Positions 2,128 to 64,000 of a stretch of 64,000 nt of DNA are shown here, in pieces (position 1 is the stretch's first letter; each line of letters begins with the position of its first letter). Source of the DNA: Malania oleifera (Eukaryota > Streptophyta > Magnoliopsida > Santalales > Ximeniaceae). The DNA lies in NCBI RefSeq assembly GCF_029873635.1, contig NC_080417.1, positions 28,673,682 to 28,737,681 on the forward strand. Reading direction: 5' to 3'. The notes under the pieces are model-generated. The model did not search any database. It had not been told where the DNA came from and saw nothing but the letters and a program-made list of their open reading frames with translations. A program made the position numbers and the translations under genes.

Positions 2128-2647
2128 GCAAGGAGGAAGATTGATGGTTTATGGTTGTGTAAGTTGTAAGGGAGGCAGATCCTATGTGTGTGGAGGCAGA
2201 TCTATCGATCCGCAATACTTTTTCCTCTTTTTGTTTGTTGAAATCAATAGGAAAAAACATTTTTTATTTGTTTTATTTTTATATATTGTGAGATTAAAAG
2301 CATAAAAAATCATTTTCATGGATTTTCTATATATTACAAAATTAAAAGGATAAAATGAAAAAAAATTATTTGAATTTTTTAAATATTGTGAAATTCTTAA
2401 AAAATCATTTTTGATTGTTAGATTTTTGTGCATATTACAAAAGTAAGGAATAAAAAAGAAAATAGGGAGAGGGGAGATAAAGTGGGGGTCTATAACACAT
2501 GACACTTTCTTGTGGCGATGCAAAATGACGTTGGTAGCTTAGGATATTATGGCATGCTGGTTGGCCTTGTGACCACCCAAAGAATAATAGTATTATAATA
2601 ATAAAGTGGGAGGAAAATGGAAACAGAAATAGAAGGAGGCAGTAGGC

Positions 2648-2885
2648 TTCGTCGACGACATTGCACTTTAGAGGTAATAATAAGTTCAAGAATTTCCAGG
2701 CTTCGTCGACGAATATAGGGATTCGTCGACGAAGGTCTTCAGGACCTCGTCGACGAGAAAATATCGAGATAAGGATTTGGGCTACTCTGAATTTCATCAA
2801 CGAAGGGTAAGAATCGTCGACGAATTTATTGAATGACTTGTCAATGAGGTGACGTGTCTCGTCGACGAATCTGGCCTTATAAATA
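2648..2885 (+). promoter_or_regulatory. LTR promoter: array of TTCGTCGACGAA palindromes and TATA box
   Basis: Eight copies of a 12-bp palindrome (consensus TTCGTCGACGAA, some diverged) start at 2648, 2702, 2722, 2746, 2793, 2813, 2837 and 2858. Within each group the start-to-start spacing is 20, 24, 20, 24 and 21 bp. A TGACGTG motif sits between the last two. TATAAATA follows at 2878-2885, about 8 bp after the last palindrome, and a CT-rich leader starts around 2920. The same arrangement recurs in the other Gypsy LTRs. A regulatory role is inferred from position. Confidence 0.7.
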
Positions 2886-3429
2886 GTGCAAACTTGGATT
2901 TTTATTCAATTTCAGTGCTTTTCTCTCTCTCCTCTCTCTTTCCTACGGTCTCTCTCCCTTCTCTCTTTGATTTTGGCCCCACCAATCACTGGATTGACGA
3001 TCTGAAGCCACCACGACGTTCCTAACGAAGTTCTCTTCAAGTTTTCTAGGGCAAATCATCGATGGGATCGAGTTGGATTTCATCCCAAATTCAAGGTAAG
3101 GTCTTTTAGTCAATTTTTTACCTTCTGATAATTATAGGAAATGATGTAGGTAAAGAAATATTGGTATTCTGTTCTGGCAAATGTTATTTTCAAGATGTTG
3201 TGTATGAGGCCCTGCGAGTGTTAGGCCAATATACCATAGGGGCTTTTTAGTAATCAAGTAAGGAAAATATGCTATGTTAGGCAATTTTACTATATTTCAG
3301 TATAAACTACATGTATTTAATAGATTATTATACACGATAGAAATTTATATAGTTTATCATTTATATATAATATGTTTAAAATTCCTGTGTGGCTTGAGAA
3401 TATGAAATAGTACGAAAGTATGTTTTACA

Positions 3430-6556: not shown

Positions 6557-6716
6557 AGCATCTGCGTGCTTGATGCAGAAATTAAGAATTGCATACTGGA
6601 TAGATGACTAGGATATTACTTGCCGGTTGAGTTGAAAGCATTTGCATGCTTGATGCAGAAATTGTAAAATGCATGCTGCTTAGTTGACTAGCATGTTGTA
6701 TGTCGGTTAATTGAGC
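6557..6716. repeat. 80-bp tandem duplication
   Basis: Two diverged copies of a unit beginning GCATCTGCGTGCTTGATGCAG; the shared GCTTGATGCAGAAATT starts at 6568 and 6648. It lies between the left subterminal region and the main array. Confidence 0.7.
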
Positions 6717-6759
6717 AAATTGAGAACTATATACTGATTAGTTAACATTGAACTTCACG

Positions 6760-9700: not shown

Positions 9701-9805
9701 AGTAAAGTAAAAATATAAACAAACTTAGCAAACTTATTTAGTCGATTACAGCACTCAGGTGTCTAAGTCAGGCATACGAGGTCGAACCCGAGTATGGTGA
9801 ATTCC
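6760..9805. repeat. Satellite-like array, ~182-bp monomers in a 4-monomer higher-order repeat
   Basis: About 16-17 monomers of 170-186 bp share GAGCTTTTTCCCC, TTAGAATACAAAC, TAAACTTAGTTCATTTTAAG and GTCC-AAACCGAGT segments. Four monomer types recur in the order A-B-C-D. Type A lacks the GAGCTTTTTCCCC box and carries CCAATTGAAAATTA instead. Type C carries CATAGTAATTAAACTTAG. Monomer ends alternate between GGATCTGA (A, C) and GGAGCTAA (B, D). The A-type CAATTGAAAA marker occurs at 6792, 7515, 8237 and 8962, giving higher-order periods of 723, 722 and 725 bp. Open frames of about 60-80 codons recur because of the repeat and are not genes. Confidence 0.9.
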
Positions 9806-10884: not shown

Positions 10885-12987
10885 TGTAGAGACCTGAAGA
10901 GATTATAATAATTAGATAATAGGAGGAGGAGAGGAAAAAAACTAAATTTGGAATTTAAACAAGGTCTCGTCGACAAACGTAGAACGTTCATTGACGAACA
11001 CACTTGAAGGAATCGTAGACAGGGACACGGGTCTCGTCGATGAGAAGTTACCAAGAGGCTAATTTCAGCCCTGAATTTCTTCGATGAGGAATAGACATTC
11101 GTCGACAAACTTCCTTTGTGGCCTTGTCAACGAAGTGACGTGGCTCGTTGACAAGTGCAGGTGTATAAATAACTTAAACTTGATTTTTCTCTCAGAAATC
11201 ATGCGAAAACCTCTCTCTCTCTCTCTCTCTCCTATTCGTCCCCTCCCCATTCTCTCTAAAATTTTGGGCCGGTTTCTTGTCGGTTTGAAGATCCAAGGCC
11301 ACCACGACACTCTTGGGAAAGTTCTCTTCAAGTCTGCTAGAGTGGATCGTTAGTGGGGCTAACTTGAACTTCATCCCAAATTCAGGGTACGACTTTTTAT
11401 TTAGTATTTGACTTTCCCACAGTTGTATAAAATGTAGTACTCGAAGAAATACTGAATTTTTGTTCAACGAGATGTTGTTTTTAGGGTGTTAAAGGGGGAA
11501 CTCTGCGGGTGTAGAAGTAGACACTGTAGGGGCTTTTTAGTAGTCAGGTAAAAGAGTAAACTAAAGCAGTAATTTTCCTTAAAAATCATTATTATTTAAT
11601 AGCAGATTAATTTTCTGGAAACATGTATTATATATAAGTATATTTGTGAAAATGTATATTTGAGAAAATACTGCTGTTACACTAGAATATGTATTTTTAA
11701 GTATGAAATGTCAGGAAATGTGATTTCAGAACAGAATTCATGATTTTATTCAATATTGTGTGGAATGAATATTATTTTACACATATTGTATTATGTTAAG
11801 CCAATTTTACAGAAAAAGCATGTTTTAGTTATTTTCAAGAATAACATGTATGATTTCAAAATATATGATAAACATAACATTTATTTAGATTAGTATGTAT
11901 GATATGTTTGGTGCAAGGCCGCGATTGATAGTCGGTGCAAGGCCGTAGTTATGCATGTTTTCGGCGTAAGGCTACAGTTATAATTATAATCAGCGCAAGA
12001 CCGTAATTACTTATGTTATTACAGAATCCAAAAATGCTATCAATCTATTTATGTTAAAACAATATATTATCATGTACTATATGTTATCAGAACCCGGATG
12101 ATAGTTCAGATAAGTTATTAGGAGCACGGTACCGTAGCTATATAGTTTAGTTTAGTTCAAACTTGTGCTAACTACCCCTACTAGTAGAGGGGGTGAGAGA
12201 TGAATAGTTGATGTGACTTTCAGTGTAGAGTTGTAGACGTCCACCTGGCAATCCAGGCCATGGTGCAGCGGGCCCATCGTACTTACAGACATTTTTTGAC
12301 TCGGCAATGGTCGGTCAGCCATTGTCGGGTCCTGCCTTCAGGTTGCACAACCTGTCATGGGGGGTACTACATGACATCAGTTAACTATTCATCCTGGGTA
12401 AATTTCAGAATAATTAGTTATATTAGATGATCTTATGAACATTGAAATATAGTATGATTTAGTAAAACCATGAAATTGTATGTTTACTCAGTTATGATAT
12501 GATCAGTGTTTTCAAGCATGTGACATGTACAGTATATTTATTATAGCACTAAATATTCATGTTACCACACAACTGTATTTAGTTTATTTCCCTTACTAAG
12601 AGGTGTCTCACCCCAACTTAAACCATTTCAGGGAACCCATAAAAACCGGCGGACTGAGGCCGCCATTAAGGTAGTGTTTACTACCCCACTAGGAGAGTGA
12701 GTTTTTGAACTAGGGTCAATAGGTTTTTGTGTAAGACCCTAGTTATAACTTTTGATGTTTTGAGAATTGTATATTTAAACAGTATATGGTGGAATGTAGG
12801 TAACTCTAGTATAATGTATCTTATGGTGTGGTGAATGAAATCTATATTTATTGCTGCTTAGGTTTCCGCTGTGTATGACAGGTGTGTCCCCACCCACGAG
12901 TTCGAGTTGACTTTATTATATAATTAGTTAGTGGTATCAGGGTGTTTAATGTGATTAATTATGTGGTAAGTTAAGTAGGTTGTTATA
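10885..12987 (+). mobile_element. Solo LTR of a Gypsy (Tekay/Del-like) element, inside Copia pol
   Basis: This LTR begins TGTAGAGACC and ends GGTTGTTATA, where the usual terminal CA has become TA. A perfect 5-bp target duplication GCAAC flanks it (10880-10884, 12988-12992), and removing it restores the Copia reading frame. It has diverged TTCGTCGACGAA palindromes at about 10970-11150, TATAAATA at 11164-11171, a (CT)n leader from about 11212, and GGCGCAAGGCCG-type repeats at 11920-12010. Confidence 0.92.
11920..12010. repeat. Short tandem repeat GGTGCAAGGCCG inside the LTR
   Basis: Four imperfect copies of a GGYGCAAGGCC core spaced about 25-30 bp. The LTR at 37162 has four copies and the LTR at 53957 has seven of the related GGCGCGAGGCC form. 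Confidence 0.75.
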
Positions 12988-23969: not shown

Positions 23970-24170
23970 TGTAGAGACCCAAAATCGGGAATTTAATAAG
24001 AAATAAAGAAAGGAAAGTTTCAACATGGAACAGCAGACTTCGTTGATGAAGCCAATGTTCTCGTCAACGAAGGCCCTTATGTGGTTCGTCAACAAAATTC
24101 AGTGCCTTGTTGACGAAGAGATCCAGAACGCCTGAAAATATTAAGTTTAGGGTTCGTCGATGAAGCCCTT
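23970..24170 (+). mobile_element. Gypsy LTR shared by two elements, left part
   Basis: The LTR starts TGTAGAGACCC at 23970, just after a purine-rich tract (AGGGGATA). It is interrupted after CCCTT (24166-24170) by the minus-strand element 24171-31972 and resumes at 31973. It is at once the 3' LTR of the pol at 20398-23689 and the 5' LTR of the internal region at 33871-41126. Confidence 0.88.
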
Positions 24171-26259
24171 TGATAGCCTTAGTGTATTCCCAAGAGGGGG
24201 GTGAATTGGGTATTTAAAAATTTATCTCCTAGGTCAAATTAATCAGCAGCAATATTACACAAACCTAGGGTCTTTCTATATAATCATAAACTCAAAAAAC
24301 ACATGTACAACATATAATGAATTAAACATAAAACATACATGTGCTGAAAATGAAAGTGTAGAAAATAAATTACGGAAATATAAAGCACACGCACAATATG
24401 TTATCAGGGTTCAGCCAACTGTGCCTACGTCCTCACCTTAGCTACACCAGCACAAGGATTCCACTAATGCTCACTTAATAGGTGGAGCGACACCGGTTAC
24501 AACCAGGTCAATTCAAAAGGCTGACCTCAACCAACACGCCTTACCAGGATGGCGCACCTAGCTTTCCTAACCGAGTTTAAGTCAGTCCAGGACTATTTAT
24601 CAGGGTTAGTCTCCCTCTTCAGGCCCGTGCCTGGAATACAACAAAGGTATATAAAATTTGCGTACACGGAAATATGCTTCTCACACTAAGTAGATATGTA
24701 CTACAATATGCACAAGTAATAATCAATCTACACCAAACATGTAAGAATTATAAGCTCAGTGCCCTACATATGCAATAACCACTTAGTATAGTGATTATTT
24801 CAAGTCAAGCACATAAGTGTTTATACAAGCTAATCTTTGAAACTAGGCAATGATAAACTCTCAATATTAGTTTAGGGTTTTAAACATTCAAACTAATAGA
24901 AATCTAGAATATCTCCAAAATAATTTTCTCAATAACAATGCACAATGAGATATTCAAATATGAGTTTGTAAAATATTTTTGCACACAAAAAATTATAGGC
25001 TAAGGTAACTTGCAATGACAATGCAAGAACCACAAGCCACTAAGTCTTCCCACACAAGATTTATCAAATAAAATTGATGGGAGAACTTAAAACTTTACTT
25101 TCAACAAAAATCAAACAATCAATATAGAAAATAAGAGTATGAGCAAGTTATAATGATGCACAAGCACACCAAATATACTCACAACACTTGAATGATCAAG
25201 GAAAATGAAGTTTTGAAGTGTATGGGAGTATTATAGGCTAAAGAAGGATTTTTGAATTTGAGAGAGTTTGGCCCTAATCAATATTTGCTAATCCTTACTG
25301 ATTATGATAAATGAACATGTATTTATAGGCAAGGAGGATTTTTTGACCGTTGGGGACTAAATGGGGATTCTTAAAATTATTTTAAAACGATTTAGGAAAA
25401 TTAACCCATTTTACCCCTTTATAAAAAATCAGTAAAAATATTTAAATTCGTGAGGTTCGGGTGCCCGGCCTGAGGTTTAGGTGACCGAACAGACTTAGTC
25501 AAAAATCTAATTTTTAATGGTTTGGGTGCCCAAATTGAGGACCAATTGGCTGAACCAAACTCAGTAGCCAAATGCCTGAGGTTCGGGTGCCCAAGGCTAC
25601 ATTCGATTAACCGAACCAAGCAATTCGGTTGCCTGAGCCCATTTTGAACATGATCGTTCAGGCGTTTGAGTAGATGAAAAGGAACTTGACGTAGGTTTGG
25701 GTGCTAGAGGGAGATACGCTCAAAAGTGGTTCGGGTGCCCGAAACATGAAGTCAACATGTTGACTTGTTCGGTCGCCTGAGCCGTTTTACACGGCTTGGG
25801 TTTGGTCGCCCGAACCCTCTCAGGATTTCAATTTAAAGTTCATTTTAGCCTTGATTTGATTCCCCTTATATAAAAAGTGATGTTGGGAACTTACTTAAGT
25901 GATTGTGCAAGACCTAGGGTCTTTTCTAAGGCCGTTTTGAGATAGTCTCAAAAATCCAGCGTCGGTCGGTCGACCGAAGGGTGCTCCCTAAGGTCTTTCT
26001 AAGGTCTTAAGCTTGTAGTTCCTACATGCATGATATGCATTAAATATTACAGACATTTTTCCTATTTACTATTACAGACTCGAATTGAATGATAATATAA
26101 ATTACAACATCAACTAATCTTCATGGTCTTCAGGCTTCAAACTTTCACGTGCCATCAAATATGAACTTGCCAATAAGAACCTACACACAAACTTGAAAGC
26201 TATCAAATACAAAGAGTATTTGTAATTCTCAAAACCGGGAACGACTTATAAGGTCAACA
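24171..26259 (-). repeat. 3' LTR of the nested Copia-type element
   Basis: A 2089-bp LTR. On the minus strand it starts TGTTGACCTTATAAG and ends with the CCCAATTCACCCCC block. Degenerate GGGCACCCGAACC repeats lie at 25440-25820 and a TATAAATA box (minus strand) near 25320. Confidence 0.88.
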
Positions 26260-26931
26260 ATCTCCCCATTTTTTATGATGACAAATACTTACCTACTTCT
26301 ACCCCTTTTGGTAACAACAAAAAGGGCTTAGATAAAACATTTAAGTATATAGGCAAAAAAAAAACATTCATATACAAGATATGGTTTGGAAAAAAATTTT
26401 AGAAAATTCGGCAGCATGCCGTTTGAAAATAGAACATTTTCCCAAAAATAACTATATACAAGTGACCTGATTGAATAATATATTGACAGTATATCCACAA
26501 CTACTTACTCAAATAGTCCAGTATTCTCAAAACATAAAATAGAGGTATAACTTTCAGTCATTCAAAAAGTATAATAGTCATACGATATAAAAAGAATGAT
26601 AAAGATAAACTCAACAATTAAGCACACAAACAATATAACTGGTCGTTATGATTTAAATGACATGAAAACAAGGTTAGACCATAAGCATACACAAACCATT
26701 TGCAATTGAAACATATCATAAGACCCGTGGAAAATTTGAGTTAAAAACACACGGCATATGATACCAAAAAGAGGGTTTGAGCATAAACATAGTCTAACTA
26801 GTTCACATGTATTTCTATGTGAAGTTATTGAACCAGTTATGCAATTATGTATATATGCATAATGATGATAAGGCAAGAAATAAAGAGTTTAGTTTTGAAA
26901 GTTGATCTTGCCAAAAAGTATATGTAAATAG

Positions 26932-26994
<63 letters not shown>

Positions 26995-28161
26995 TATATA
27001 TCCCCCTTGATATTTGCAAAAAGTGTTGGGGGTGCTTGCTGAAAAAGAAACTTTAATTTTAAAACAAGCAAGTAACATTTTCTGGTTTGTCAATTAAGCA
27101 CGTACAAGAATATAACCATAAAAATCAACCATAAAATCCTAAAGATATCAGACAATTCAAAACAAGGATCATATGGCTACACAACTAACTGTGGCAAAAC
27201 AACATATTTCAACTTAAAAATTTTCAATATAACCATTTTATTCAAGCATATGCCACATTTGATTCAACAACATATCTAAGCTAAAAATTTTGTGAGCATA
27301 ATATGATAGGAATTTTAATTTTAGATGCTTCCCTTATCAATTTGAGTACGTGCTTAGATTATTTAACTACTTATACTAACCAAAGATTAATTTCATTTTG
27401 CTCAGTAGTATAAGCCATCAATCCAAATCTTTAAAATCAACTATACTAAGTATTTGTCAATTACATACTATCACTTGATTAGTATAGTTGTCCCTATAGA
27501 CCATGGATGCATCAGAAAATATATATTAAGGCATGCAATAATTTTCATGACCCAAGAACATTCCATATCAAACCATAAAACTTCAAGCACATGATATAAT
27601 GTTTAAGGGTTTCATAAGAGCCTCAATAATTTAGTAGACGAAAGTGATGCATATGGATCATTTATGTGCTTCCTATAGGGATGGATCTGAGCCTTTCTAA
27701 ATGTTTAATGATTATGCTAGGATGAAGTTTAATTATCTATTAGTTTTCACTCATCCTTTCAAAAAAATATTTTAACGTTAATTTTATCATAATCATCTTT
27801 AACACGAGGTTTGGCTTTGGAAAAATTCCTGTCGAAATTTCGGTAGCATGCCGCCTGTAAATCGGACATTTCCCAAATTTTCATGCACCAAAACCTGATA
27901 GATTCAAGCAATCTGTATATATAGTTCAATTTGAGCATGCAAGAACCTATAATCCACTACTAGCATGCAATTCACATCAACTGCATCCGCCATGCAAAAG
28001 GCATTCTAAACTAAGCATGCAATCAGGTAGCAATCAACAAATGATATATAAGATAAACCATCCATTAGAAAATATAATCATTTAACGCATAATGAATAGT
28101 AGGAATTTAGTGCTTTTCTTATGATGGCATATGGGCATAAAAGATAAAAATCATGAGAGCA

Positions 28162-28198
<37 letters not shown>

Positions 28199-29229
28199 TG
28201 AAGAGAAATGCTCCCCCTGAGTTATCCACTTATTCAATTTATGCCTCTTCTTAATTATCTACTTTCTTTAGCCAAGGTTATAAGATTTTCAATAATTTTA
28301 GTTTGGCTTTGAATGCTTAGGCTTAGAGGACCAAAAAGTCACAGACAATATTTTTCAAGATCATAAGCCAACCTTACCTCTTTTCTTATGAATCTCAATA
28401 CGTGTGATTGCATAAGATTAAATACTCACAAGGATTAAAATTTATGTTAAGTTCGAAGAGTACTCATTATGAGTGGACATTTTCAAAAATCTTTTTGTGC
28501 TAGTTAATATGTCCACACCTTTTTAACAAAGAGCAGCTAGGAGTATATAAATTTTCTTGAACAATGCTCTTCGGGGAATGGAAAGTATCCTATAGATATG
28601 ATCATGATTTGTAGCAAGGATACAAACCGATGGAAAGGTATAATCTTTACCAGATATGATCGTGATTTGGGAATTAGTCCTATGGATGAGATGGTGAACC
28701 AAAGTAGAGCATTTTTATATTTTAAGCTTAAAGGGAATATTTTGATTTAACTAATAAAATTTGAATCCCTTAGTGGTTGCCTCTAATCTTGATTATAGCA
28801 AGATGTCTTATGAAAAGCATACTTAATATATATATTAATCATTTAAGATCAATAGTACTTTAAGCTTAGAGTTATGACTCGATTTTGATTTAGGCATTTC
28901 ATATTCAAAGATGAGTTTAGGACAAGATGTATAAAATGGAAGGATTTATTTTCTAAAACTCAAACTTATGTAATGGATAGAGCATGCTTAACTTTAGATA
29001 TCCATATTTAAGTGAGAGTTAAGCAATTTGAATTGTTTACCAAGCAAAAGTGCTTTGTCCATTTTGAAAGTGGATTTTAATCTTAGTATAACAAAATAGT
29101 ATTTAGAGAATGCAACACTAAGTTTTGGAATTTTAAGCATAAACCACTTCCTAGTCTTTTAATCATTACTACCCCCTAAATCTAGTCCTAGGGTCTAAGG
29201 AGAAAAATAATTAATTTGATGATTTTAAT
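26260..29229 (-). other. Non-coding interior of the nested element
   Basis: No pol domain is detectable in any frame. The stretch contains (TA)n runs at 26935-26992 and 28168-28195. It also holds two diverged copies of a segment with CGGCAGCATGCCG (26385-26455 and 27815-27885). Confidence 0.6.
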
Positions 29230-30360
29230 TTAAATCCATTTTTCCTTAGGTCCTACGGGATTTGCCTTACTGATTATCCATTTCATTTCCTTTTCTAAGC
29301 CTCTTGCACTTATAAATAAACAGTTAAACCATACGTGCCCTTTTCTTTCATGAGGTAAGCATATTTTGTATATGGGTGAAGAAATATGCTTATTTAAACT
29401 GTTTTTACTCAATGAGGCATGACAATGGGATTCGCAAAATGAACCATTTCCAAAAGATTTATTTCTTTCAGCTCCTAAAGGTTTATTTGAACTGTATTTC
29501 TTAGATTTGAAAATCATTATGGAATAATTGTCAATTTTTCTTTCTAAGTAGATGATTTTCAAGACCTTCTTAATCTTTTTCTTCTCAAGGATAGCATGAT
29601 ATTCCTTCTATTTTTCTAATTGTTGAACTATCATTTCATTTTCATTTTAGAAAGATACCTTCTTCTTGTTCACCCTAACTAGAATTTTGTTCATTTTCAA
29701 TTTCATTTATCAATTCAACACATGATTCATCAAAATAATTAATACAATAATTTTCACATGAATCATTGCATGCAACAACAACAGTATTTTCACAAGGAAT
29801 ACCAAATGATTCATCATACAATATATTGCAATATTTTTCACAAGAATCATCACGTGCATCAATAACAAATTATCACAATATTCAATAGATGATTCAACAC
29901 ATGTAGCAACACAGCATTCAACCCTTAAAACGAGCTAAAGTGAGAATCATATACCACATGTTCTGTTGATGCACTATCCCTCTCACTTACCACTCCCTGA
30001 TCATCTGAACATGACATCTCTGGAGTGATGGTTTCCTTTTCCTGAATCTCTCCATATCTCTTTTCCAGCTCAGCCCAGATTTCCCTTGCATTTGTACATA
30101 CCACAATCTCAAGTAAAATATTAGCGTCTAAAGCACAATATAGCATGTCCATGGCATGTGAATTTGCATGCAAAAAATTAATATCATTTTCTACTGGCAT
30201 ACAAATTCCCTTATCAATCACCTGCTAGGCCCTCCAATTTATAGTTTTTTACAAATATGCATATTCTAATTTTCCAGGCGGTGTAATCAACACCACAAAA
30301 TAACGGAGGACTGGAAGGTGACTGTCCCTCTCCGAATGGGGATACACCAAATTGAGCCAT
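29230..30360 (-). pseudogene. Copia gag pseudogene of the nested element
   Basis: The frame starts at 30360 with MAQFGVSPFGEG, an N-terminus typical of Copia gag. A frameshift and a TAG in place of TGG then precede the conserved stretch CTNAREIWAELEKRYGE (30221-30000). A Lys/Glu-rich middle follows, and a zinc-knuckle region near 29340 reads CLPHERKGHVWFNC, where the second Cys has become His. The last part, KANPVGPKEKWI, resembles the end of gag in this group. Gag packages element RNA; this copy cannot make an intact protein. Confidence 0.72.
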
Positions 30361-30397
30361 TGCAATTTTTTGCGAAAACATTTAAGTCTAGTGCAAC

Positions 30398-30414
30398 GAG
30401 ACTCTGATACTAAT
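30398..30414 (-). other. Primer-binding site of the nested element
   Basis: Next to the 5' LTR, read on the minus strand as TTAGTATCAGAGTC. It matches the 3' end complement of initiator tRNA-Met (TGGTATCAGAGC) with a few changes. Confidence 0.7.
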
Positions 30415-31972
30415 TGTTAGTCTTGGTGTATTCCCAAAAGGGGGTGAATTGGGTATTTAAAAATTTATCTCCTAGGTCAAATTAATCAGCAGCAGTATTA
30501 CACAAACCTAGTGTCTTTCTATATAATCATAAACCCAATCAACACATGTACAACATATAATTAATTAAACGTAAAACATATATGTGCTAAGAATTAAAGT
30601 GCGAAAAATAAATTGTAGAAATATAAAGCATACGCATGATATGTTATCGAGGTTCGGCCAACTGTGCCTACGTCCCCGCCTTGGCTATACCAGCACAAGG
30701 ATTCCACTAATGCTCACTTAACGGGTGGAGCGGCACCGGTTACAACCAGGTCAATTCAAGGGACTGACCTCAACCAACACGTCTTACCAAGATGGCGCAC
30801 CTAACTTTCCTAACCAGGTTTAAGCCAGTCCGGGACTATTTACTGGGGCTAGTCTCTCTTTTCAAGCCCGTGCCTGGAATACAACAAAGGTATGTAAAAT
30901 TTGCGTACACAGAAATATGCTTCTCACACTAAGCAAATATGTACTACAATATGCACAAGTAATAATCAATCCACACCAATTTTGTTAATCCTTGCTAATT
31001 ATGACAAATGAACAGGTATTTATAGGCAAGTAGGATTTTTTTACCGTTGGGGACTAAATGGGGATTCTTAAAATTGTTTTAAAACGGTTTAGGAAAATTA
31101 GCCCATTTTATCCCTTTTAAAAAAATCAGTAAAAATATTTTAATCCGTGAGGTTCGGGTGCCCGGACTGAGGTTCAGGTGCCCGGACTAAGATTCGAGTG
31201 ACCGAACAAACTTAGTCAAAAATCCAATTTTTAATGGTTCGGGTGCACAAATTGAGAACCGGTTGGCTGAACCAAAGTCAGTAGTCAAATGCCTGAGGTT
31301 AAGGTGCCCGAGGCTACATTCGGTTAACCGAACCAAGCAATTCAGTCGCTCGAGCCCATTTTAAAAGTGATCGTTCGAGCGCCCGAGTAGTTGAAAAGGA
31401 ACCTGACATAGATTTGGGTGCCCAAGGGAGATACGCTCAAAAGTGGTTCGGGTGCCCGAAACATGAAGTCAACATGTTGACTTGTTCACTTGCCCGAGCC
31501 GTTTTACACGGCTTGGGTTCGATCGCCCGAACCCTCTCAGAATTTCAATTTAAAGTTCATTTTAGCCTTGATTTGATTTCCCTTATATGAAAAGTGATGT
31601 TGGGGACTTACTTAAGTGATTGTGCAAGACCTAGGTTCTTTTCTAAGGCCGTTTTGAGATAGTCTCGAAAATCCAGCGTCGATCAACTGAAGGGTACTCC
31701 CTAAGGTCTTTCTAAGGTCTTGAGCTTATAGTCCCTACATGCATGATATGCATTAAATACTATAGACCTTTTTCCTATTTACTATTACAGACCCGAATTG
31801 AATGATAATATAAATTACAACATCAACTAATCTTCAGGGACTTCAAGCTTCAAGCTTTCACGTGCCATCAAATATGAACTTGCCAATAAGAACCTGCACA
31901 TAAACTTGAAAGTCATCAAATACAAAGAGTACTTGTCATTATTAAAACCTATAATGGCCTATAAGGTCAACA
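30415..31972 (-). repeat. 5' LTR of the nested Copia-type element, internally deleted
   Basis: This LTR is 1558 bp, about 530 bp shorter than its partner. The difference is mainly one deletion matching 24737-25279 of the 3' LTR, placed at about 30979. The TATAAATA box (minus strand) is at 31017-31024, so the deletion begins about 40 bp downstream of it and removes the expected start region and leader. Confidence 0.85.
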
Positions 31973-32095
31973 CCCTTCTTTCGTTGATGAACAACCTTCT
32001 GTGGTTCGTCGACGAAGGCGTCATTTCATCGATGAATTTGACCGGGTCAAGGGGCTATAAATAGAATTTTTGTTTGCTTCTTCATTAAGAAATCT

Positions 32096-35302: not shown

Positions 35303-38300
35303 GTGCCACGTGGTGGTTATAACAGGGGTACGATCCAGGCGAGGGTGTATTCCTTTACTCCTAGCGACGTCGAGAATGCGAGTGACGTGGTGATAGGTAA
35401 TATTTATATGCTTTCAAATAAAGCAGTGATATTATTTGATTCAGGAGTGATGCATTCCTTTGTTTCCTGGGGATTCGTTAGGTTATGTGGGTTAGAGGTA
35501 CAGCTATTAGATGCTATCTTATTAGTGGTTACACTGTCAGAGTTAGTAGTTGTGTGTAATAGGATGATTTGGGATTTCCTAGTGGAGATTCAAGGGAGAG
35601 CTTTGCCAGTCAGCTTAATTATGTTTGAGATGCACGACTTCGAAATTATTCTGAGGATGGATTGGCTAGCAGCCAATTACACCAGCATCGATTGCCAAAG
35701 GAGAGAGGTGAGATCCAAGCCTCTTGGGGAGCAAGAATTCAAGTTTGTAGGGCCATGTGTGCGTTCTACACCACGTATCCTTTCAGCTATTCAGGCTAGA
35801 AGGTTACTCCAAGAGGGATGCCCAGGGTACTTGGCATTTGTGAAAGAAACACCGAAATAACAACTTAAGGTGGAGGAGATTTTTGTAGTAAGTGAGTTCC
35901 TTGATGTATTTCCAGAGGACTTACCGAAATTGCCTCCTAATTGTGAGGTGGAGTTCGCTATAGAGTTGGCTGTAGGAGCGGCATCGATATCAAAAACCCA
36001 TATCGTATGGCTCCAGTAGAACTGAGGGAATTAAAGGAGCAGCTACAGGAGTTACTAGATAAGGGCTACATTCGACCAAGTGTTTCACCCTAGGGAGCAC
36101 CAGTGTTCTTTGTGAAGAAAAATGATGGGTTAATAAGGATGTGCATTGACTACATAGTGACTGTGAAGAATAAATACCCATTACCTAGAATAGATGATCT
36201 GTTTGGCCAGCTACGGGGCACACAGGCTTTCTCTAAGATCGATCTGCGATCTGAGTATCATCAGGATTTACCAAAGATGGCATTCTGGACTAGGTATGGC
36301 CACTAAGAATTTCTGGTTATGCCTTTCGGGTTTACCAATGTTCCTGTAGCATTCATGGACTTGATGAACAGCGTGTTCCACGAGTATCTAGATCAATTCG
36401 TGGTCATGTTCATTGACGACATCCATGTGTATTTAAGGAGTCTTGAGGAGCATGCTATTCATTTGAGATTGGTACTTCAGGTGCTCAAGGAGAAGAAGAT
36501 TTTTTCTAAGTTTAAGAAATGCGACTTTTGGTTAGAGCAAGTGGCATTTCTGGGCTTGTAGTGTTAAAAGAAGGGGTATCAGTGGACCTGAGCAAAATAG
36601 GAGTGGTAATGGACTGGGTGAGACCAAAGAATGTTAAGGAGGTTAAGAGTTTTATAGGTGTCGCAAGATACTACTAACAGTTCGTAGAAGGGTTCTCCAG
36701 CTTATCATGTACATTGAGATGACTAATGAGGAAGAACGTGAAGTATGATTGGACTGATTAGTGTGAGCAAAGTTTCCAAGAACTGAAGCAATGACTAGTT
36801 ACTGCACCAGTTCTGACCATTCAGTTAAGGGATGGTGGGTTTGTTATTTTTAGTGACACCTCAAAGAAGGGTCTCGGGTGTGTTTTAATGCAGTAGGATA
36901 AGGTAATTGCTTATGCTTCTCATCAACTCCAGGAGTACAAGAAGAACTACCCAACACATGATAAGGAATTAGCAGGGGTAGTGTATGCATTGAAGATCTA
37001 GAGGCACTACCTGTATGGTGAAAGGTGCGAGATTTTTACCAATCATAAAAGTCTTAAGTACATTTTCACCCAGAAGAAGCTAAATATGAGGCAGCGTAGA
37101 TGACTTAAGCTGATAAAGGACTATGACTGTACCATAGCTATCACCCAAGAAAAGCTAATATTATAATGACTCGAAGAATAATGGTATTTAAATAATAGAG
37201 TAAGGGGAAAATGGAAACAGCAATAGAAGGAGGCAGCAGGCTTCACGTTCGTCGATGAAGTGACGGTATAGGCTCATCGATGAAGGTGTGCCTCATCGAC
37301 GAGAAGATACCGAGAGGGGGTTTTGGGCCACTCTGAATTTTGTCCATGAAGGGAAGAGTTCATCGACGAATTACCTCTTGACCTCGTTGATGAGGTGACG
37401 TGGCTCGTCGACGAATCTCATAGTATAAATAGTGCAAAACTCATTTTTTATGCAAAAAAATCAGGAAACCTCACTCTCTCTCTCTCTCTCTCTCCTCCCT
37501 ATGGTTTCTCTCTCCTCTTTCTTCGATTTTGGCTCCGCTGTTCGCCGGATCGACGATCTGAGGCCACCACGATGCTCATGGGAAAGTTCTCTCCAAAGCT
37601 ACTGGAGTGGATCGTTGGTGGGGTAGAGTTGGAATTCATCCCTAGTTTAAGGTAAGACTTTTTATTCAAAATTTAGTCTTACTATAGTTATAGGAAATGA
37701 TATTCACGCAAAAATACTAAAGTTTAGTTCTTAAAGTTGTTGAATTCAGGGTGTTGAATGGGGAACCCTGCGAGTGAGGGACGAGTGGATTTTTAGGGGG
37801 TTTTTCTCAGTGTCAGATAAGAGAATAAACTAAAGTAGTTATTTTTATGCAAATTATATTATTATTATTATTATTATTTATTAGCAAATTTTTTTTCTAG
37901 AAGCATGTATAATATATATGAAAAGATTGGTAATAATGCATGTTTGGAAAAATACTGCTATTATGTTGAAATATACATATATTAGAATGATATGCCAAGA
38001 AATATGATTTTTAGAATGGAATATACAGTTTATTTAGCATTGTGCGGCATGAATATTATTTTACCTGAAAAGTATTATGTTATGGAAATTTTACGAATAA
38101 AGCATGTTTTTACAGATTATAAGATAATGCAGTATATTATGGTTTCAAAATACATGATAAATGAATTATTTATTCATAACAATATTCATGAAATATTCGG
38201 TACAAGGCCGTGTATGATATATGATTTCGGCGCAAGGCCATATGTATGATTTTGGTGCAAGGCCACAGATATGAAAGTAAACGGCGCAAGGCCATATGTT

Positions 38301-40849
38301 TTATGTTATTACAAAACATGCTATCAAGCTATTTACGTTAAACTGTATATTATCATGTATTATGTATTATCAGAACCCGAATGATAGTTCAGTTCAGTTA
38401 CAGGAGTACAGTACCATTGCTATACAGATCAGATATCTATGTTCATACTTGTGCTAATCACCCCACAAGGGGGTGGGTGGGAGATGGATAGTCGATGTGA
38501 CTTTTAGTGTAGAGTTGTAGGCGTCCACCTAGCAGTTCGAACCAGGATGTGGCGGGCCCATTATACTTACAGACATTTTTGACTCGGTAGTGATCGGCCA
38601 GCCATTGTCGGGTCCCGCCTTCGGGCTGCACAACCCGTCATGGGGGTTAATACATGACATCAACTAGTTATACATCTAGAGTGAATTTTCAGTATTATTA
38701 GTTATATCAGACATTTTATGAACTATATGATTTATTAGAAAATACGAAAGTATATGATTATTCAGTATGATATGATGAATGTTTTCAGGTATATAAAATA
38801 TACTGTATATGTATAATTGCATCAAATATTCATGTTGTCACACAACTGTATTTAGTTTATTTTCCCTTACTAAGAAGTGTCTCACCCCCGAACGTAAATC
38901 ATTTTCAGGAAACCCAAAAAGGCCGGCGGATCAAGGCCACCTTTGAGATAGTGTGGTACTACCCTGCTAGGAGGGTAAGTTTGAACTAGGATTATGAAAT
39001 TTTGATGTGGGGTCCTAGAGATACTTTTTTTTATATATTTTTGGGGGATTGTATATAAACGCCATGTTTTTGGATTATATTTGACTCTGGTATTATGTAT
39101 TTTGTGGTTATGAGAATGTGATTTACATTTAGTGCTGCTTAGGTTTCCGTTGTGAGCTATGAATGTCAAATGTGTCCCCGTTACCCACGGGTTCGAATTG
39201 ACCTTATTATTAGATGTGTATTAGTATATGATTAGATTAGCAAGTCGTTACAAATATGGTAGCTGATGCTCTGAGTCGGAAGTCAGTTGATGCGTCAGTC
39301 TCAGTAGTGGGAGTTTAGCATCAGATATGTATGGACTTGGAAAGGTTGGGCTTAGAGGTAGTGGAAGGAAATCACCAGGCCCTCGTTGCTAGCTTGGTGA
39401 TACAACCGACCTTACAGGAAAGGATCAGAGAAGCTCAGACGACAAATGTAGAGCTGGTAGAGGTTGTGGAGGGAGTTCAGGAGGGATTGAAGCCGGATTT
39501 CAACATTTTAGGTAATGGGGTGTTGAGATTCCATACCAGGATTTGCGTACCAAATGACACCAAGATTAAACGGTTCAATTTAAGGGAGGCACATCGCTCA
39601 CTCTACACAGTACATCCAGGGAGTACAAAGATATATAAGGATTTACGGGAATCTTTTTAGTGGTCTAACATAAAAAGTGAGATTGCCCATTTCGTAAAAC
39701 AGTGTCTGACATGTCAACAGGGGAAGGTTGAGCACCAGAGGCCGGTGGGACCTTTGCAACCACTTCTTATTCCTAAATGGAAGTGGGAGGAAATCTCCAT
39801 GGATTTTGTTACGGGGTTGCCATCAGCACTACACGAGTAGAATGCGATTTGGGTTGTGGTTGTTAGATTGACGAAGACAACCCACTTCATCCCGGTGAAA
39901 GGTAGTTATTCCATGGATAAGTTGGTAGAGCTTTGTGTACATGAGATAGTCAGGTTGTATGGAGTGTCAGTGTCGATTGTCTCAGATAGGGATCCATGAT
40001 TTACTTCCCGATTCTGGAAAAGTCTTCAGGAAGCATTGGGATCTTAGCTTACGTTCAATACAATGTTTCACTCTCAAATAGATGATCAGTCTGAGAGGAC
40101 CATCCATATTTTAGAGGATATGTTAAGGGCGTGTGTACTGGATTTTGGTGGCAGTTGAATTAGACATCTGTCATTGGTTGAGTTTGCCTACAACAACAGT
40201 TATCAGTCCAGTATCGGGGTAGCACCGTATGAGGCACTGTATGGTCGAAGATGTCAATCTCTATTGTTTAGGGATGAGGTTGGTGAGCAATAGTTTGGGA
40301 CCAGAGTTGGTTCAACAAGCTTTAAGGAAGGTAAAGCTCATCAGGGAACGAATTAAAGCAGCTTAAAGTCGGTAGAAGAGTTACATAGATACATGCCAAC
40401 GAAAGCTAGAATCTGAGGTAGGTGATGCTACATTTTTTAGGATTGCTCTGATAAAAAAAGTGATGAGGTTTGGTAAGAAAGGCAAGTTGAGCCCTAGGTA
40501 CGTTGAACTGTTCAAAATTTTGGAGAAAGTTGGTTCGGTGGCGTACATGATAGCATTACCTCCCGCCTTGTCTAGGATTCATGACATGTTCCACATGTAC
40601 ATGCTTAAAAGGTATGTTCCAGATCCTTCGCATGTGATTAGTTACGAGTCGTTGGAGCTCCAGGATATGTCAGCATATGAGGAGATACTAGTTCAGATCC
40701 TAGATCATAGAGAGCAAAAGCAACGTACGAAGAGGATTCCTCTAGTAAAGGTATTATGGCATAATCACGCAGTTGAAGAAATTTCATGGGAGTTAGAGTC
40801 AGAGATACATAAGAAGTATCCTCACCTTTTCAAAGACACCCAGAGCTAG
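35303..40849 (+). pseudogene. Gypsy (Tekay/Del) pol pseudogene (element 2), split by a solo LTR
   Basis: Order of domains: aspartic protease (LFDSGVMHSF, 35440-35475), linker, reverse transcriptase (start FPEDL near 35905; catalytic FIDDI near 36412-36426, intact), RNase H (from about 36840), a solo LTR at 37162-39252, the RNase H end (VADALSRKSV, from 39262), integrase (zinc finger near 39600-39720; catalytic part 39780-40200) and a terminal chromodomain-like region (VLWHNHAVEEISWE, 40755-40796). The stop is at 40847-40849. The chromodomain and layout place it among chromoviruses, probably Tekay/Del. Many stops and frameshifts (36069 TAG, 36304 TAA, 36558 TAG) break it. It is collinear with the pol at 20398. 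Confidence 0.88.
37162..39252 (+). mobile_element. Solo LTR of a Gypsy element inside RNase H of element 2
   Basis: A 2091-bp LTR beginning TATAATGACTC (usual TG altered to TA) and ending AGTCGTTACA. A perfect target duplication AATAT flanks it (37157-37161, 39253-39257), and removing it restores the RNase H frame. It has palindromes up to 37415, TATAAATA at 37424-37431, a (TC)n leader from 37474, and four GGCGCAAGGCC repeats at 38205-38300. Confidence 0.93.
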
Positions 40850-41126: not shown

Positions 41127-41448
41127 TGTAGAGACCCAAAACTAGGAATTTAATAACAAATATAGAAAGGAAAATTTCAACATGGAATAGCAGGCTTCGT
41201 CGATGAAGCCAATGTTGTCGTCGACGAAGGCCCTTCTATGCTTCGTCATCGAAATTCAACGCCTCATTGGCGAAGAGATCCAGAATTTCTAAAAATATAA
41301 AGTTTAGGGTTCATCAATGAAGCCCTTTCTTTCGTCAACGAATAGTCTTTTGTGGTTCATGGATGAAGGCGCCATTTCATCGACGAATTTGATCGGGTTA
41401 AGGAGCTATAAATAGGATTTTTGTTTGCTTCTACATTAAGAAATCTAA

Positions 41449-41505
<57 letters not shown>

Positions 41506-43216
41506 ATTGTTCGTCATTCGTCTCCCATTTCGATAATCGAAAGATACCACGAGGATTAGGGGACAAATCTCTACTAATCTAGTGGAGTAGATTCTAGAAC
41601 TCGGGAAAAAGTTCAGGTCGTTTATAGGAATCAGGTAAGGGGATTATATTTTGTTAGCTATATTTAAGAGCTTTAAACGAATGGAATGTTAAAATGATTT
41701 TTATATATTTAGTTTTGGCTTTTCTAAGGTTTCCGGGCCTAGGGTTCGGTTAACCGACTTTATTTTCGAAACTAATCGTTTAAATTTAAGTATGATATTT
41801 TTAAAGTGTAGTATTGGTCTTTAGGGACGTTTTCACCAGTTGGGAAATTGTTATTTCAAACCATAAGCTTATTTTAAAATTAACCAAAGACGATAGGGTT
41901 GATTTTCTCTATTTTTCCCACATTTAGTTATATATCTATATTTAATGAAATAACAACTTGGAGATATTCATACCCTAATTTTAGAAGCAGAAATTACTTT
42001 ATCAAGCAAATGATTTATTTATGAATTAACTTATGTAAATTGTGTGGCATGAATATAGTTTTTAATTTGTATTAAATGAGCAGGTTTTGTGGAATACTAA
42101 AATGTAATGGCTATATGCCGAGATATGAGATAAGAAATATGACATGCTATGATATGCTGATTTTTACTGAGTCATTATCAAGCAGATATGTAGCAGAGAT
42201 ATGTACGGTTTTATGAAATGATTTATAATTACGATTTTATACAATGTAAATTGTCATATATGATAGTAAAGCCCTGTTATTATGTTCTCATGTTGAAGCT
42301 CGGTATCATAGCTAAATTTATGTAGAGGTGCAATCCACACACCAAGAGTGTGTATGGGAAAGGCGATTGGTGACTTGGTTAAAGTACTCCCCAAAGGTTT
42401 TCTGGGGTTCCATTCGATGTAGTAATTCCGGATGACTCGGCCTTCGAGCGGCCTTCAGGTACAGATTGAGTAGACACCATCATACTACTTTATGTTTAAC
42501 TTAGCAATAGTCGGCCGACTATTTGCTAGGTTCAGCCTTCGGACTGCACAATCCGTTATAAGGAAAAGCATGTCGCATGTGTATGTGATGGCATGACGAC
42601 ATTAGTCCTACAGACCAGGCTGTATCATCTAGGCATATATGGGCACATTTACTATAAAAATGGCTATATTGAGCCAACAATATGTTATTATGAAAGCATG
42701 TATTTTCAGATATACATTTTAGTATAGTTTTAAATGTCAGTTAAATGATTAATGTTAACAGTATTATGTAACCACAAAATCTCATGTTAACCACACACTA
42801 ATGATAATGTAATCCGTCTTACTAAGAAGTGTCTCACCCCAATATACAAATCTTATTTTAGGTTCTGCAAGAAACCGACCCTAAACTGCAAGAGGGATTT
42901 TGGGTATAGTGTTTTAATAGTTTATGTAAGTTCTTGTATATGTACTAGGCTCTAACCAAGTTACCTTTTTAGGTTTGTAATAGCAGATTATGTTTTAGTA
43001 TGTATGGATGTATATGAGGAAACAGTTAGAAACTCTGATAAGTTTTATTCGAAAATGTACTTATGTTTATGTTTTTCGCTATGCATGAATATGAAGATCA
43101 GTATGAAACACCGATTTCCCTTATTTGGGCAAATAGTATATGTATGGTATCAGAAATATGTATGATACGTAGGTATAGTAATAGTTCGGGCCCACCTAGA
43201 GGGTCGGAGCGTTACA
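41127..43216 (+). mobile_element. 3' LTR of Gypsy element 2
   Basis: A 2090-bp LTR, TGTAGAGACCC to GAGCGTTACA. Palindromes lie at about 41199-41386, TATAAATA at 41407-41414, and a long (TC)25 leader at 41452-41502. It matches the split LTR 23970-24170 plus 31973-33870. Confidence 0.9.
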
Positions 43217-53956: not shown

Positions 53957-56009
53957 TGTAACAACCCGAATTTTTAAATGAAATTTAACTAATAAAGAAA
54001 GGGGAATGGAAACAAAAATAAAGAAGGAAGCTGCCAAGCTTCGTCGACGAACACAGGGTTTCGTCAACGAAGGCTTAAAGGATTTCGTCGACGAATACAG
54101 GGCTTCGTCGACGAAGAATTACTGAGAGAGGTTCTGGAGCCGACTGAATTTCGTCGATGAAGACTGGATTTCATCGACGAATTTCGCCGCCTATAAATAT
54201 GAAAAATCCGATTGTTTATTCATTTTTCACGCTCCTCTCTCTCTCCTCTCTCTTCTCTTCGGCCCTCTCACTCTCTCTCTTCGATTTTGGGTTAGTTTTA
54301 CGCCGGATCGAAGATCTGAGGCTACCGCAACGCTTCTGGAGAAATTCCCTACAAGTTTTCCGGAGTAGATCATTGGGGAAACGAAGTTGGAAATCATCCC
54401 AAAATTGAGGTAAGGCTTTTTAAGCCAAATTAGACTTCATGGTAGTTATAGAAATTGACGTACACATGAAAATACTGATGATTAATACTGGGAGTTTTGA
54501 GTTTCAGGATATTAAGTAGGAAATCCTACGAGGGTCAGGCTAAGATTTTAGGGGGCTTTCTCAGTAGCCAGGTAAGGGAGTAAACTAAAGCAGTTCTTTT
54601 CCATGCAAACTATTATTGATTATGAGTAGTTTTATTTTCAGAAGAACATATGATATATTCGTTTATTATGAATGAAATGTACGATTGAGAAAATACTGCT
54701 ATGATGCTTAAAAAGTATATGTATGTATGAGATGTCAGAAAATTATGATTTAAAAATATGAAGTATGACTTTTAATAGAGCATGTGTGGCATGAATATTA
54801 TTTTACATGAAATGAGATAAAATATGAATACTTTTACGAGTAAAACACATTTTCAGGTATTTTGGAAAGATGGGTTACGTTATATTAAGTTGACGAATAT
54901 ATGATAAATGAGTCATTTTCAAATGTAAATACCTGAAATGTGTTTGGCGCGAGGCCATATTTATGTTATCGGCACGAGGCCGTATTTATATGATTTTGGC
55001 ACGAGGCCATGTATTTATGCTATCAGCATGAGGCCGTATTGATATTATTGGCGCGAGGCCATATTTACTAAAATTTTGGCACGAGGCCATACGTATGATT
55101 TCAGCGCGAGGCTGTAATGATGTTATGTATGATCATGTATTTTATGTTATCACAACCAGGATGTTAGTTTAGTTCAGACCAGAAGCTCGGTATCGTAGCT
55201 ATGGGTAGATCAGATTTTGGCACGAGGCAGTATTAGTGCTAACCATCCCACGAGGGGATGGGAGATGGATGGTCGATGTGGCTTTCAGTAGAGTGTGGAC
55301 GTCCACCTGGCAGTCCGAACCAGGGTATGGCGGGTCCATCGTACTTACAGACATATTTGATTCGGCAGTGGTCGGCCAGCCATTGTCGGGTCCCTCCTTC
55401 GGGCTGCACAACCCGTCATAGGGGGTAATACATGACATTAGCTAGCTATTCATCCTGGGTATATTTTCAGTATTATGAGTTATAACAGATGTTTATGTAT
55501 GTTATGATTTATTAAGGAATATGAAAATACATGATTATCCAGCATGATATTATGATTATTTCCAGAGTTATGAAATGTACTGTATACGTATAAGCACTTT
55601 AAATATTCATGTTGCCACACAGCTATATTTAGTTTACTTTCCCTTACTGAGAAGTGTCTCACCCCCAACATTAACATATTTTTCAGGAAACCCAGAGAGA
55701 CCGGCGGGTCAGGGCCGCCGTTGAGTGATTGGTGCTTCCCTACTAGAAGGGTAAGCGTCGAACTAGGACTAGGAGATTTTGTTGTATGGTCCTAGGTTTT
55801 GACTTTTTGGAGATCATACATATAAACAGTACATTGATGTTAATAGAAAGCTCTGGTATTATATTTTATGATTGGATGTTTGAGATTTTACGTTTACTGC
55901 TGCTAGGTTTTCCGCTGTGTTTGACAGGTGTCCCCGCTATCCACGAGTTCGGGTTGACCATTTTACCTATTATGTGACATTATATGTTTATAAATTGAGG
56001 GACGTTACA
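53957..56009 (+). mobile_element. 5' LTR of Gypsy element 3
   Basis: A 2053-bp LTR, TGTAACAACCC to GACGTTACA, directly followed by the primer-binding site TTTGGTATCAGAGCC (56010-56024). Six palindromes lie at 54040-54181 with starts 54040, 54060, 54084, 54104, 54150 and 54170. TATAAATA is at 54192-54199, a CT-rich leader follows from 54236, and seven GGCGCGAGGCC-type repeats lie at 54950-55110. It is the least decayed Gypsy LTR in the window by its intact palindromes. Confidence 0.9.
54950..55115. repeat. Short tandem repeat GGCGCGAGGCCATATTTATG, seven copies
   Basis: Imperfect units about 25-28 bp long inside the LTR. Partial copies recur inverted at 57481-57620, and related four-copy versions occur at 11920 and 38205. 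Confidence 0.8.
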
Positions 56010-63218: not shown

Positions 63219-64000
63219 TGTAACGACCCAAAGATTAATGGTATTTAAATAATAAAAGAAAGAGAAATGGAAATAGGAACAGAAGGAGACAGTCAACTTC
63301 GTCGACAAACGCATTGCATTTTGAATGGCATAATTCCAAGGAATTTTTCAGCTCCTCATCGACGAATACAAGGGACTCGTCAATGAGGGTCTAACAGGAG
63401 CTCGTCGACGAGAAGATACCGAGAGAGAATTTTTGGAAACCTAAAATTCGTCGACGAGGGTTGAAGTTCGTCGACGAATTTTCTACAGGACTCGTTGACA
63501 AGGTGATGTGGCTCGTCAACGAATCCCGCAGTATAAATAGGGTTAAACGTGATTTTCAGTCCATTTTCCTACACAGAAACCCTCTCTCTCTCATCCTTTG
63601 GTCCTTCCCCCTTCTTTCTTCGATTTCGGGCCGAATTTCTGTTGGTTTGAGGATCTGAAACAACCACGACACTCTTGAGAAAGTTTTCTGCAAGTCTACT
63701 GGAGTGGATCGTCGGTGGGGCTAAGTTAGAAACCATCCCAAATCCAGGGTAAGGGTTTCTACTCAGTATTTGGTTATTTGACAGCTGTAGAAATTGTTAT
63801 ACTCGTAGAAATACTGAACTTTAGTTCTAGGGAATGCTGTTTCCAGGGTGTTGAGTTAGGAACCCTGTAGGTGCAGGACAGATTTTTTTTAGGGGCTTTT
63901 CAAAAATCAGGTAAGGGGATAAACTAAACTAGTTCTTTTAAGAAAATGTATGTATATATAGCATTTGATTTCAGGAAAGTAAATATGTCTATATATATGT
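63219..64000 (+). mobile_element. Gypsy LTR, cut by the window edge
   Basis: It starts TGTAACGACCC and follows the layout of the other Tekay/Del-like LTRs. Palindrome starts are at 63298, 63355, 63376, 63401, 63447, 63467, 63491 and 63512, with TATAAATA at 63532-63539 and a CT-rich leader near 63583. Whether it is a solo LTR or part of a full element cannot be told from this window. Confidence 0.88.

Follow-up and report, generated by a model that had tools for sequence, protein, structure and literature searches.

A conserved CpG-rich site array upstream of the TATA box in a plant Ty3/Gypsy LTR family

Comparison of the LTRs in a 64,000-nucleotide stretch of plant DNA rich in LTR retrotransposons (the window) revealed a putative promoter array that is conserved within a Ty3/Gypsy family. 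Fifty-three 12-bp sites resembling TTCGTCGACGAA are distributed over seven LTRs, six to eight in each, and lie directly upstream of the TATA word TATAAATA. The array probably forms the upstream activating region of the U3 promoter, with its 6-8 putative sites serving one host DNA-binding protein or protein family. Such a protein would bind the sites in DNA and activate transcription from the adjacent TATA box. This reading is based on the position of the sites, their repetition, the conservation of sites and not of spacers, and a background-like decay in the most similar array-bearing pair. A first-pass annotation had described the array as helically phased, a claim that fails; a covariation between neighbouring sites, suggestive of inverted pairs, merits following.

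Layout and composition of the arrays

All seven LTRs belong to one family, lie on the plus strand and measure about 2 kb where complete, as delimited by self-comparison with ends read by eye. BLAST identity between them is 67-73%, except for LTRs C/D and F, which are about 85% identical. The LTRs, their arrays and associated features are as follows.

2568..3263, plus strand: 5' part of LTR A, recognised by similarity to the other LTRs; TGTGACCACCC start read by eye
2648..2869, plus strand: array A, eight sites starting at 2648, 2702, 2722, 2746, 2793, 2813, 2837 and 2858
2850..2857, plus strand: TGACGTGT box of LTR A, between the last two sites
2878..2885, plus strand: TATA word TATAAATA of LTR A
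10885..12929, plus strand: LTR B, from self-comparison with ends by eye; 3' end approximate
10966..11155, plus strand: array B, eight slots starting at 10966, 10987, 11012, 11033, 11077, 11098, 11123 and 11144; TATA word at 11164
From 23970, plus strand: LTR C/D, split by the insertion at 24172-31972
24039..24164, plus strand: first five sites of array C/D, starting at 24039, 24060, 24085, 24106 and 24153
24172..31972, unstranded: insertion in LTR C/D, from self-comparison, between the fifth and sixth sites
31980..32036, plus strand: last three sites of array C/D, starting at 31980, 32005 and 32025; TATA word at 32056
37162..39252, plus strand: LTR E, a solo LTR with boundaries by eye and a 5-bp target duplication, AATAT
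37248..37415, plus strand: array E, seven sites starting at 37248, 37273, 37292, 37339, 37359, 37383 and 37404; TATA word at 37424
41127..43216, plus strand: LTR F, TGTAGAGACCC..GCGTTACA, from self-comparison and by eye
41196..41387, plus strand: array F, eight sites starting at 41196, 41217, 41242, 41263, 41310, 41331, 41356 and 41376; TATA word at 41407
53957..56009, plus strand: LTR G, TGTAACAACCC..ACGTTACA, 3' end by eye
54040..54181, plus strand: array G, six sites starting at 54040, 54060, 54084, 54104, 54150 and 54170; TATA word at 54192
63219..64000, plus strand: LTR H, TGTAACGACCC start, 3' side cut by the window end
63298..63523, plus strand: array H, eight sites starting at 63298, 63355, 63376, 63401, 63447, 63467, 63491 and 63512; TATA word at 63532

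A chance origin of these sites is excluded, since the window contains 62 matches to TTCGTCGACGAA with up to three mismatches, compared with 12.9 (sd 3.2) in shuffled sequence, and this number was reached in 0 of 100 shuffles. The eight sites that the first-pass annotation reported before the TATA word of LTR A are all present, and its site starts for the LTRs at 53957 and 63219 are correct, with one additional site at 63298; arrays B, C/D, E and F extend its description. The total of 53 includes slot 11012 of array B, a degraded copy placed by spacing, which raises the count from 52 and is part of the phase test and later analyses, while an earlier 52-site table was compiled without it.

Typically, two pairs are followed by a gap, two further pairs and the TATA word; sites lie 19-21 bp apart in a pair, 24-25 bp apart from one pair to the next and 44-47 bp apart across the gap. 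The first cluster is one site short in LTRs A, E and H, and A and H contain an extra site 54-57 bp upstream; array G is without the last pair. Among the short steps of six arrays (split C/D excluded), 20 of 31 measure 19-21 bp and 11 measure 24-25 bp, a correction to the 20/24/20-bp rhythm noted earlier; eight long steps measure 44-57 bp. In all seven arrays, 8-19 bp separate the end of the last site from TATAAATA: the distance is 8, 8, 8, 8 and 10 bp in five of them, as had been stated for every copy, and 19 bp in the other two.

The sites had been called palindromes, a description that applies strictly to three of the eight in LTR A and to 10 of 53 overall; seven of the 53 equal the consensus, and site 2837 of array A is five transitions away from it. 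The non-CpG core letters agree with the consensus in 209 of 212 cases. Of the 159 CpG places, 97 are intact and 58 now read TG or CA. The CpG richness attributed to the array is borne out in the six of the seven arrays compared, which contain 7.3-11.3 CpG per 100 bp versus 1.7-3.2 in the LTR 3' of them, with observed/expected ratios of 1.37-2.08 versus 0.46-0.87 (only part of the downstream LTR being available for A and H). CpG-built sites can be methylated in plants, and activator sites and silencing targets may therefore share the same letters, which would constitute a trade-off for the element.

Within the sites, decay is uneven. Counts of G-to-A or C-to-T changes over 52 sites from all seven arrays gave 28 at the ACG cytosines (G4/C9), 10 at the outer TCG (C3/G10) and 19 at the central CpG, of 104 each. 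Outside the sites, in the comparison of C/D with F and of the internal regions, 28 of 121 ACG and 32 of 183 TCG were changed. The unevenness within sites may be mutational. On the minus strand, a 156-aa stop-to-stop frame (2435-2905) runs antisense across the whole array of LTR A; it is probably due to chance, because repeated CG-rich palindromes hold few stops.

Two further short words recur near the arrays. Between the last two sites, LTRs A, B, E and H contain a box of the form GTGACGTGG or close to it, with the variants TGACGTGG in B and E and TGATGTGG in H, and the pattern also matches at 35383 and 39003, outside the arrays. The TGACGTGT/GTGACGTGG box resembles an ACGT-type bZIP site and may represent a second promoter element. 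About 215 bp after the TATA word, LTR A contains the splice-donor-like word AAGGTAAG (3093-3100); the aligned position reads GGTAAG in five of six LTRs (A, B, E, F, G, H) and GGTACG in B, and adjoins a block that is free of indels among LTRs A, B, E and H.

Conservation, decay and spacing

An alignment of six LTRs over slots 4-8 (five sites each, three in G; split LTR excluded) revealed that the sites are far better conserved than the DNA around them. Sites are 78.2% identical, compared with 49.2% for spacers, 60.4% downstream of TATA and 65.1% upstream of the array, which is the outcome that the first-pass annotation had proposed looking for. When transversions alone are counted, identity is 97.6% in sites, 71.6% in spacers and 82.7% downstream, and the non-CpG site positions 2, 5, 8 and 11 are 98.1% identical. 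The site identity was reached in 0 of 20000 bootstraps drawn from spacer columns. Sliding the site mask along the alignment placed the non-CpG mask at rank 1 of 633 and the all-position mask at rank 2 of 631, outranked by its own one-base shift. Wherever they are present, the five slots occupy the same columns of the alignment. These figures describe copies from one window that represent about four lineages (A/E/H, B, C-D/F and G), collected by their resemblance to the consensus, a procedure biased towards conserved copies (11012 having been added by position), and aligned with MAFFT, which may preferentially align sites. They point to a multi-site array, putatively for binding, that has been conserved just upstream of the TATA box, as suggested by the annotation.

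The two most similar array-bearing LTRs, C/D and F, have decayed in a different manner. Their sites are 82.3% identical, compared with 86.5% for all other DNA compared, which comprises LTR and internal regions; the LTR share of the non-site DNA is about 88% identical (236 differences in 1978). Transversions amount to 3.1% in sites and 3.2% elsewhere, and CpGs are intact in both copies in 7 of 17 cases within sites and 52 of 176 elsewhere. All three comparisons fall short of significance (p 0.23, 1.0 and 0.41), with low power given only 96 site bases. Equal decay in young copies, which the annotation had counted against its own proposal, is therefore seen in this pair, yet the sites are constrained between lineages; taken together, this indicates neutral decay after insertion and not absence of function. 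The sequences indicate that selection acted on the sites while the family was active and that they drift in dead copies, a behaviour to be expected from a promoter element.

The first-pass annotation further proposed that the sites occupy one face of the DNA helix, presumably as the platform of one cooperative complex. Paired sites are in phase, being 20-21 bp or about two turns apart, and the start of the last site lies 20 bp upstream of the TATA word in four of the seven arrays. Phase coherence R at 10.5 bp per turn was nevertheless 0.08-0.53 (p 0.11-0.95), and in none of the six arrays tested, the split one being excluded, did it exceed that of random spacing. Because of the steps of 24-25 and 44-47 bp, sites are rotated against each other, and so are the pairs; the higher R at 10.9-11.3 bp accompanies a mean step near 22 bp. 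Helical phasing of the whole array is thus very improbable. The spacing varies by no more than a few bases, in line with the annotation, but its special protection is not supported by indel rates among LTRs A, B, E and H: the array has 1.33 indels per 100 bp, the region upstream 1.91 and that just downstream 2.05, and two blocks further downstream have 0.00.

With respect to the protein that might bind the array, the GTCGAC core may fit (G/a)(C/t)CGAC, the site recognised by AP2 factors of the CBF/DREB type. A literature search for such factors binding GTCGAC found no support, listing a paper on ABA receptors.

Covariation of neighbouring sites

The 20-21-bp neighbours carry complementary changes more often than expected. 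In 23 such pairs (excluding 24153/31980, which the insertion separates), 19 changes are compensated and 51 uncompensated; sites 11123/11144 match at three places and 24085/24106 at two. The expected number of compensated changes is 11.4 under a shuffle of sites inside each LTR (p 0.0014) and 13.6 under one that exchanges partners only (p 0.0072). When partners were exchanged across LTRs but within a slot type, p was 0.00025, under a null that has no control for the degree of decay of each LTR, and a plain complementarity score for 20/21-bp neighbours gave p 0.010. In alignment A1, built from the same 23 pairs, the share paired, the both-side-changed cells and the covariation score were each reached by 0 of 500 shuffles. 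Alignment A2 holds 13 pairs. Pairs at 20/21 bp changed on both sides were matched by 3 of 500 shuffles, and further pair types were not raised (136 of 500).

No comparable excess occurs at other distances, where compensated changes numbered 5 against 6.7 expected at 24-25 bp, 17 against 14.7 at 44-47 bp and 8 against 11.0 at 64-72 bp. The two halves of one site gave 13 compensated changes against 13.0 expected, and in pair counting for 24/25-bp pairs and site halves no measure stands out. A covariation within the site dyad was considered for positions 1/12 (Fisher p 0.0015) and rejected, as a within-LTR shuffle of right halves raises p to 0.048 and the overall count is 13 versus 13.0.

Leaving out one LTR at a time kept p at or below 0.008 under site shuffling, and the partner shuffle without C/D gave 0.023. 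With four lineages kept, using one representative each of A/E/H and C-D/F, p ranged from 0.0035 to 0.12, and no LTR is significant alone (p 0.07-0.68). The two shuffles gave p 0.0036 and 0.13 for the loop-side half of the stem and 0.32 and 0.037 for the outer half. As the test is post hoc, with several distance classes examined and pairs that are related, we regard the sequence evidence for a real signal as suggestive. In the same suggestive sense, where a site is an asymmetric variant, its neighbour often carries that variant in the reverse orientation, which creates an inverted repeat of 12 + 8/9 + 12 bp. Possible causes are hairpin formation, recognition by a symmetric protein complex and templated repair from one arm to the other.

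Within the promoter reading, two sites at a distance of 20-21 bp may, in the light of the covariation, be used jointly as one inverted pair, with three or four pairs in series. A more specific version, which we put forward tentatively as possible though not probable, holds that the functional unit is the inverted site pair (12 bp, 8-9 bp, 12 bp), kept by compensatory change, and not the palindrome. It would be read either as two oppositely oriented asymmetric variants by a symmetric complex or as a hairpin. On this view, the inverted-repeat promoter code would tolerate C-to-T decay as long as the two arms change together, and the palindromic consensus would only be the form that it takes with all CpGs intact.

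The array might instead act as a nucleic-acid structure, with sites 20-21 bp apart pairing as hairpins (12-bp stems, 8-9-nt loops) in the U3 of genomic RNA, in antisense RNA or in single-stranded cDNA. The hairpins could serve the RNA life cycle of the element, or they could harm it by supplying host silencing with small RNAs. The compensated changes are those expected of such stems and are not in excess at 24-25 bp or within sites. Four array segments have strong predicted RNA folds (z -3.7 to -5.8), although repeated palindromes fold strongly anyway, and palindrome clusters of Sireviruses have been linked to small RNAs (PMC10760457). Plus-strand RNA should tolerate G-U, yet the mismatches remaining in the 20/21 pairs comprise 16 G-T, 27 A-C and 8 others. 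A symmetric protein complex on an inverted pair predicts the same covariation, and this signal is post hoc, uneven between stem halves, sensitive to reduction to four lineages or omission of C/D, and not raised in further pair types. On balance, we consider a structural role unlikely.

Templated repair within inverted repeats would, we reason, generate compensated changes in the absence of selection, and the array could on this account be a minisatellite-like repeat without bound function, spread by duplication and made uniform by repair between inverted copies. Its copy number varies, and TRF, run on arrays A, F and G, reported array G as a tandem repeat of period 20 (54040-54115) and no repeat in A and F. 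Copying would carry spacers too, yet spacers are 49% identical and sites 78%. Homogenisation of spacers within an LTR was likewise rejected: spacers 2-3 and 6-7 of an LTR match each other best in only two of the five LTRs compared. A repeat of this kind is improbable as an explanation of the array. If the covariation with neighbours were found genome-wide, it could separate DNA-binding from hairpin models by sequence data alone.

The Gypsy family, similar arrays and surroundings

The elements have TG..CA LTR ends, a 5-bp target duplication and a primer site after the 5' LTR. Domains above the cut-off (Retrotrans_gag, Ty3_capsid, RVP_2, RT_RNaseH and SH3_Tf2-1) assign them to Ty3/Gypsy; the pieces with these domains were found 5' of LTR C/D, between it and LTR F, and 3' of LTR G, and the remaining LTRs are assigned by LTR similarity alone. 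A Chromo match at the integrase end falls just below the cut-off (E 1.1e-4, 22.5 versus 25.1 bits); the family may be a chromovirus. The termini, read by eye, are TGTA..TTACA in LTRs F and G, with the first base pair changed in E. Also by eye, words resembling a primer binding site, TGGTATCA or TGGTATTAG, occur 3' of LTRs B (TGGTATCA at 12932) and C/D. An empty site (AATGT) that matches the insertion of LTR E is found in a related internal region at about 22095. Among gag relatives with E up to 1e-20, 27 of 30 come from Malania oleifera, the best being 63% identical, and the host is accordingly probably this tree or a relative of it; in viral contigs, none of eight pattern matches was confirmed.

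The VANC motif arrays of VANDAL transposons offer a further model, in which the array would be the target of an anti-silencing factor encoded by the element itself. Like the targets of VANC21 (PMC5735166), it consists of short non-coding motif clusters that vary in repeat number, and it is CpG-dense. A shallow search revealed no such protein: it covered six of the eight stop-to-stop ORFs of at least 150 aa, and all six matched retrotransposon domains, four of Gypsy type and two of another element. VANDALs, for their part, are DNA transposons of the MULE type, and we consider this model extremely improbable.

Repeated binding sites upstream of TATA in U3 are a feature of the HTLV-1 21-bp repeats and the Tnt1 BII boxes, which are unrelated to the Gypsy array in sequence and differ from it in copy number and arrangement. 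The closest parallel is the repeated motif (RM) of Sireviruses, a Ty1/Copia lineage. According to PMC2829016, it comprises 10-20-bp palindromic units in 3-14 copies in the 3' LTR and at least eight per element, clustered in the upper LTR half shortly before a conserved TATA, associated with CpG islands and proposed to be regulatory; a CGG-CCG core occurs in all listed elements but one, and the motif is called Sirevirus-specific against the classic Copia elements of that data set. The Gypsy array resembles it in its clustered, CpG-dense palindromic copies before TATA, here in 6-8 slots per LTR, and the listed Vitis Sirevirus motif CGGTCGACCG shares GTCGAC with it (PMC2829016). Differences from the same description are the regular 20/24-bp steps and the covariation of neighbours. 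Because of its Gypsy domains and a consensus TTCGTCGACGAA (core CGTCGACG) without the CGG-CCG signature, the array is an analogue of the Sirevirus RM and not a member. A Gypsy family that uses this design with a different core would suggest that unrelated LTR families converge on palindrome arrays before TATA.

PMC10760457 describes repeat arrays, some of them palindromic, in the cis-regions of several TE families, which makes the general kind a known one, and cites Bousios et al. 2016 for a link between palindrome clusters of maize Sirevirus LTRs and small RNAs. The Gypsy array resembles these clusters, as outlined there, in the location of its palindromes in the LTR cis-region and in strong predicted RNA structure; unlike the small-RNA work, the evidence presented here is comparative. 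In ONSEN, the LTR heat response element copies the host site nTTCnnGAAn, bound by HSFA2 (PMC3907296). The ONSEN LTR is without CG sites (PMC3907296), whereas an intact Gypsy site has three, and the TTC-N6-GAA spacing of the Gypsy site differs from nTTCnnGAAn; a heat shock element was accordingly rejected by eye.

A survey of the literature on LTR palindromes, covering the titles and abstract openings of the papers listed and few subscription papers, contained no report of the Gypsy array. Among the papers searched, the 12-mer was found in two, both unrelated by title, and TCGTCGACGA together with 'retrotransposon' in none. Two exact TCGTCGACGA sites 9-15 bp apart occur in 22 viral and at least 119 prokaryote genome stretches. 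Blastn (E up to 1e-3) with the 5' parts of six LTRs gave no match among the 141 stretches listed, in which GC is 0.62-0.72 (10%-90% quantiles; lowest 0.40) and the spacing is 21 or 24 in 136 of 141, as fits repeated codons. The pairs were taken as coincidence.

The surroundings of the LTRs display additional rearrangements. An apparent LTR-int-LTR-int-LTR tandem spans 20416-43216, with LTR C/D in the middle and LTR F at the end; its two internal regions, one on each side of C/D, are 83-85% similar, and LTR C/D is followed by a primer-site-like word and then by the second internal region running to LTR F. The promoter array of this middle LTR is interrupted by the 7.8-kb insertion, which contains direct repeats within 24170-26259 and 30414-31972. 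Tandem units of about 185 bp, with recurring steps of 352-355 bp, fill 6709-9739 and could be a satellite. Just upstream of LTR H, 60415-62664 holds polyprotein pieces with Pol_BBD and SH3_retrovirus, presumably of Copia type, and LTR H seems to be inserted into the element that bears them. Finally, a 677-bp inverted repeat (54408-55084 and 57481-58157, 97% complementary, 2.4 kb apart) has one arm in LTR G and, if transcribed through, would yield a long hairpin RNA, a possible source of small RNAs.
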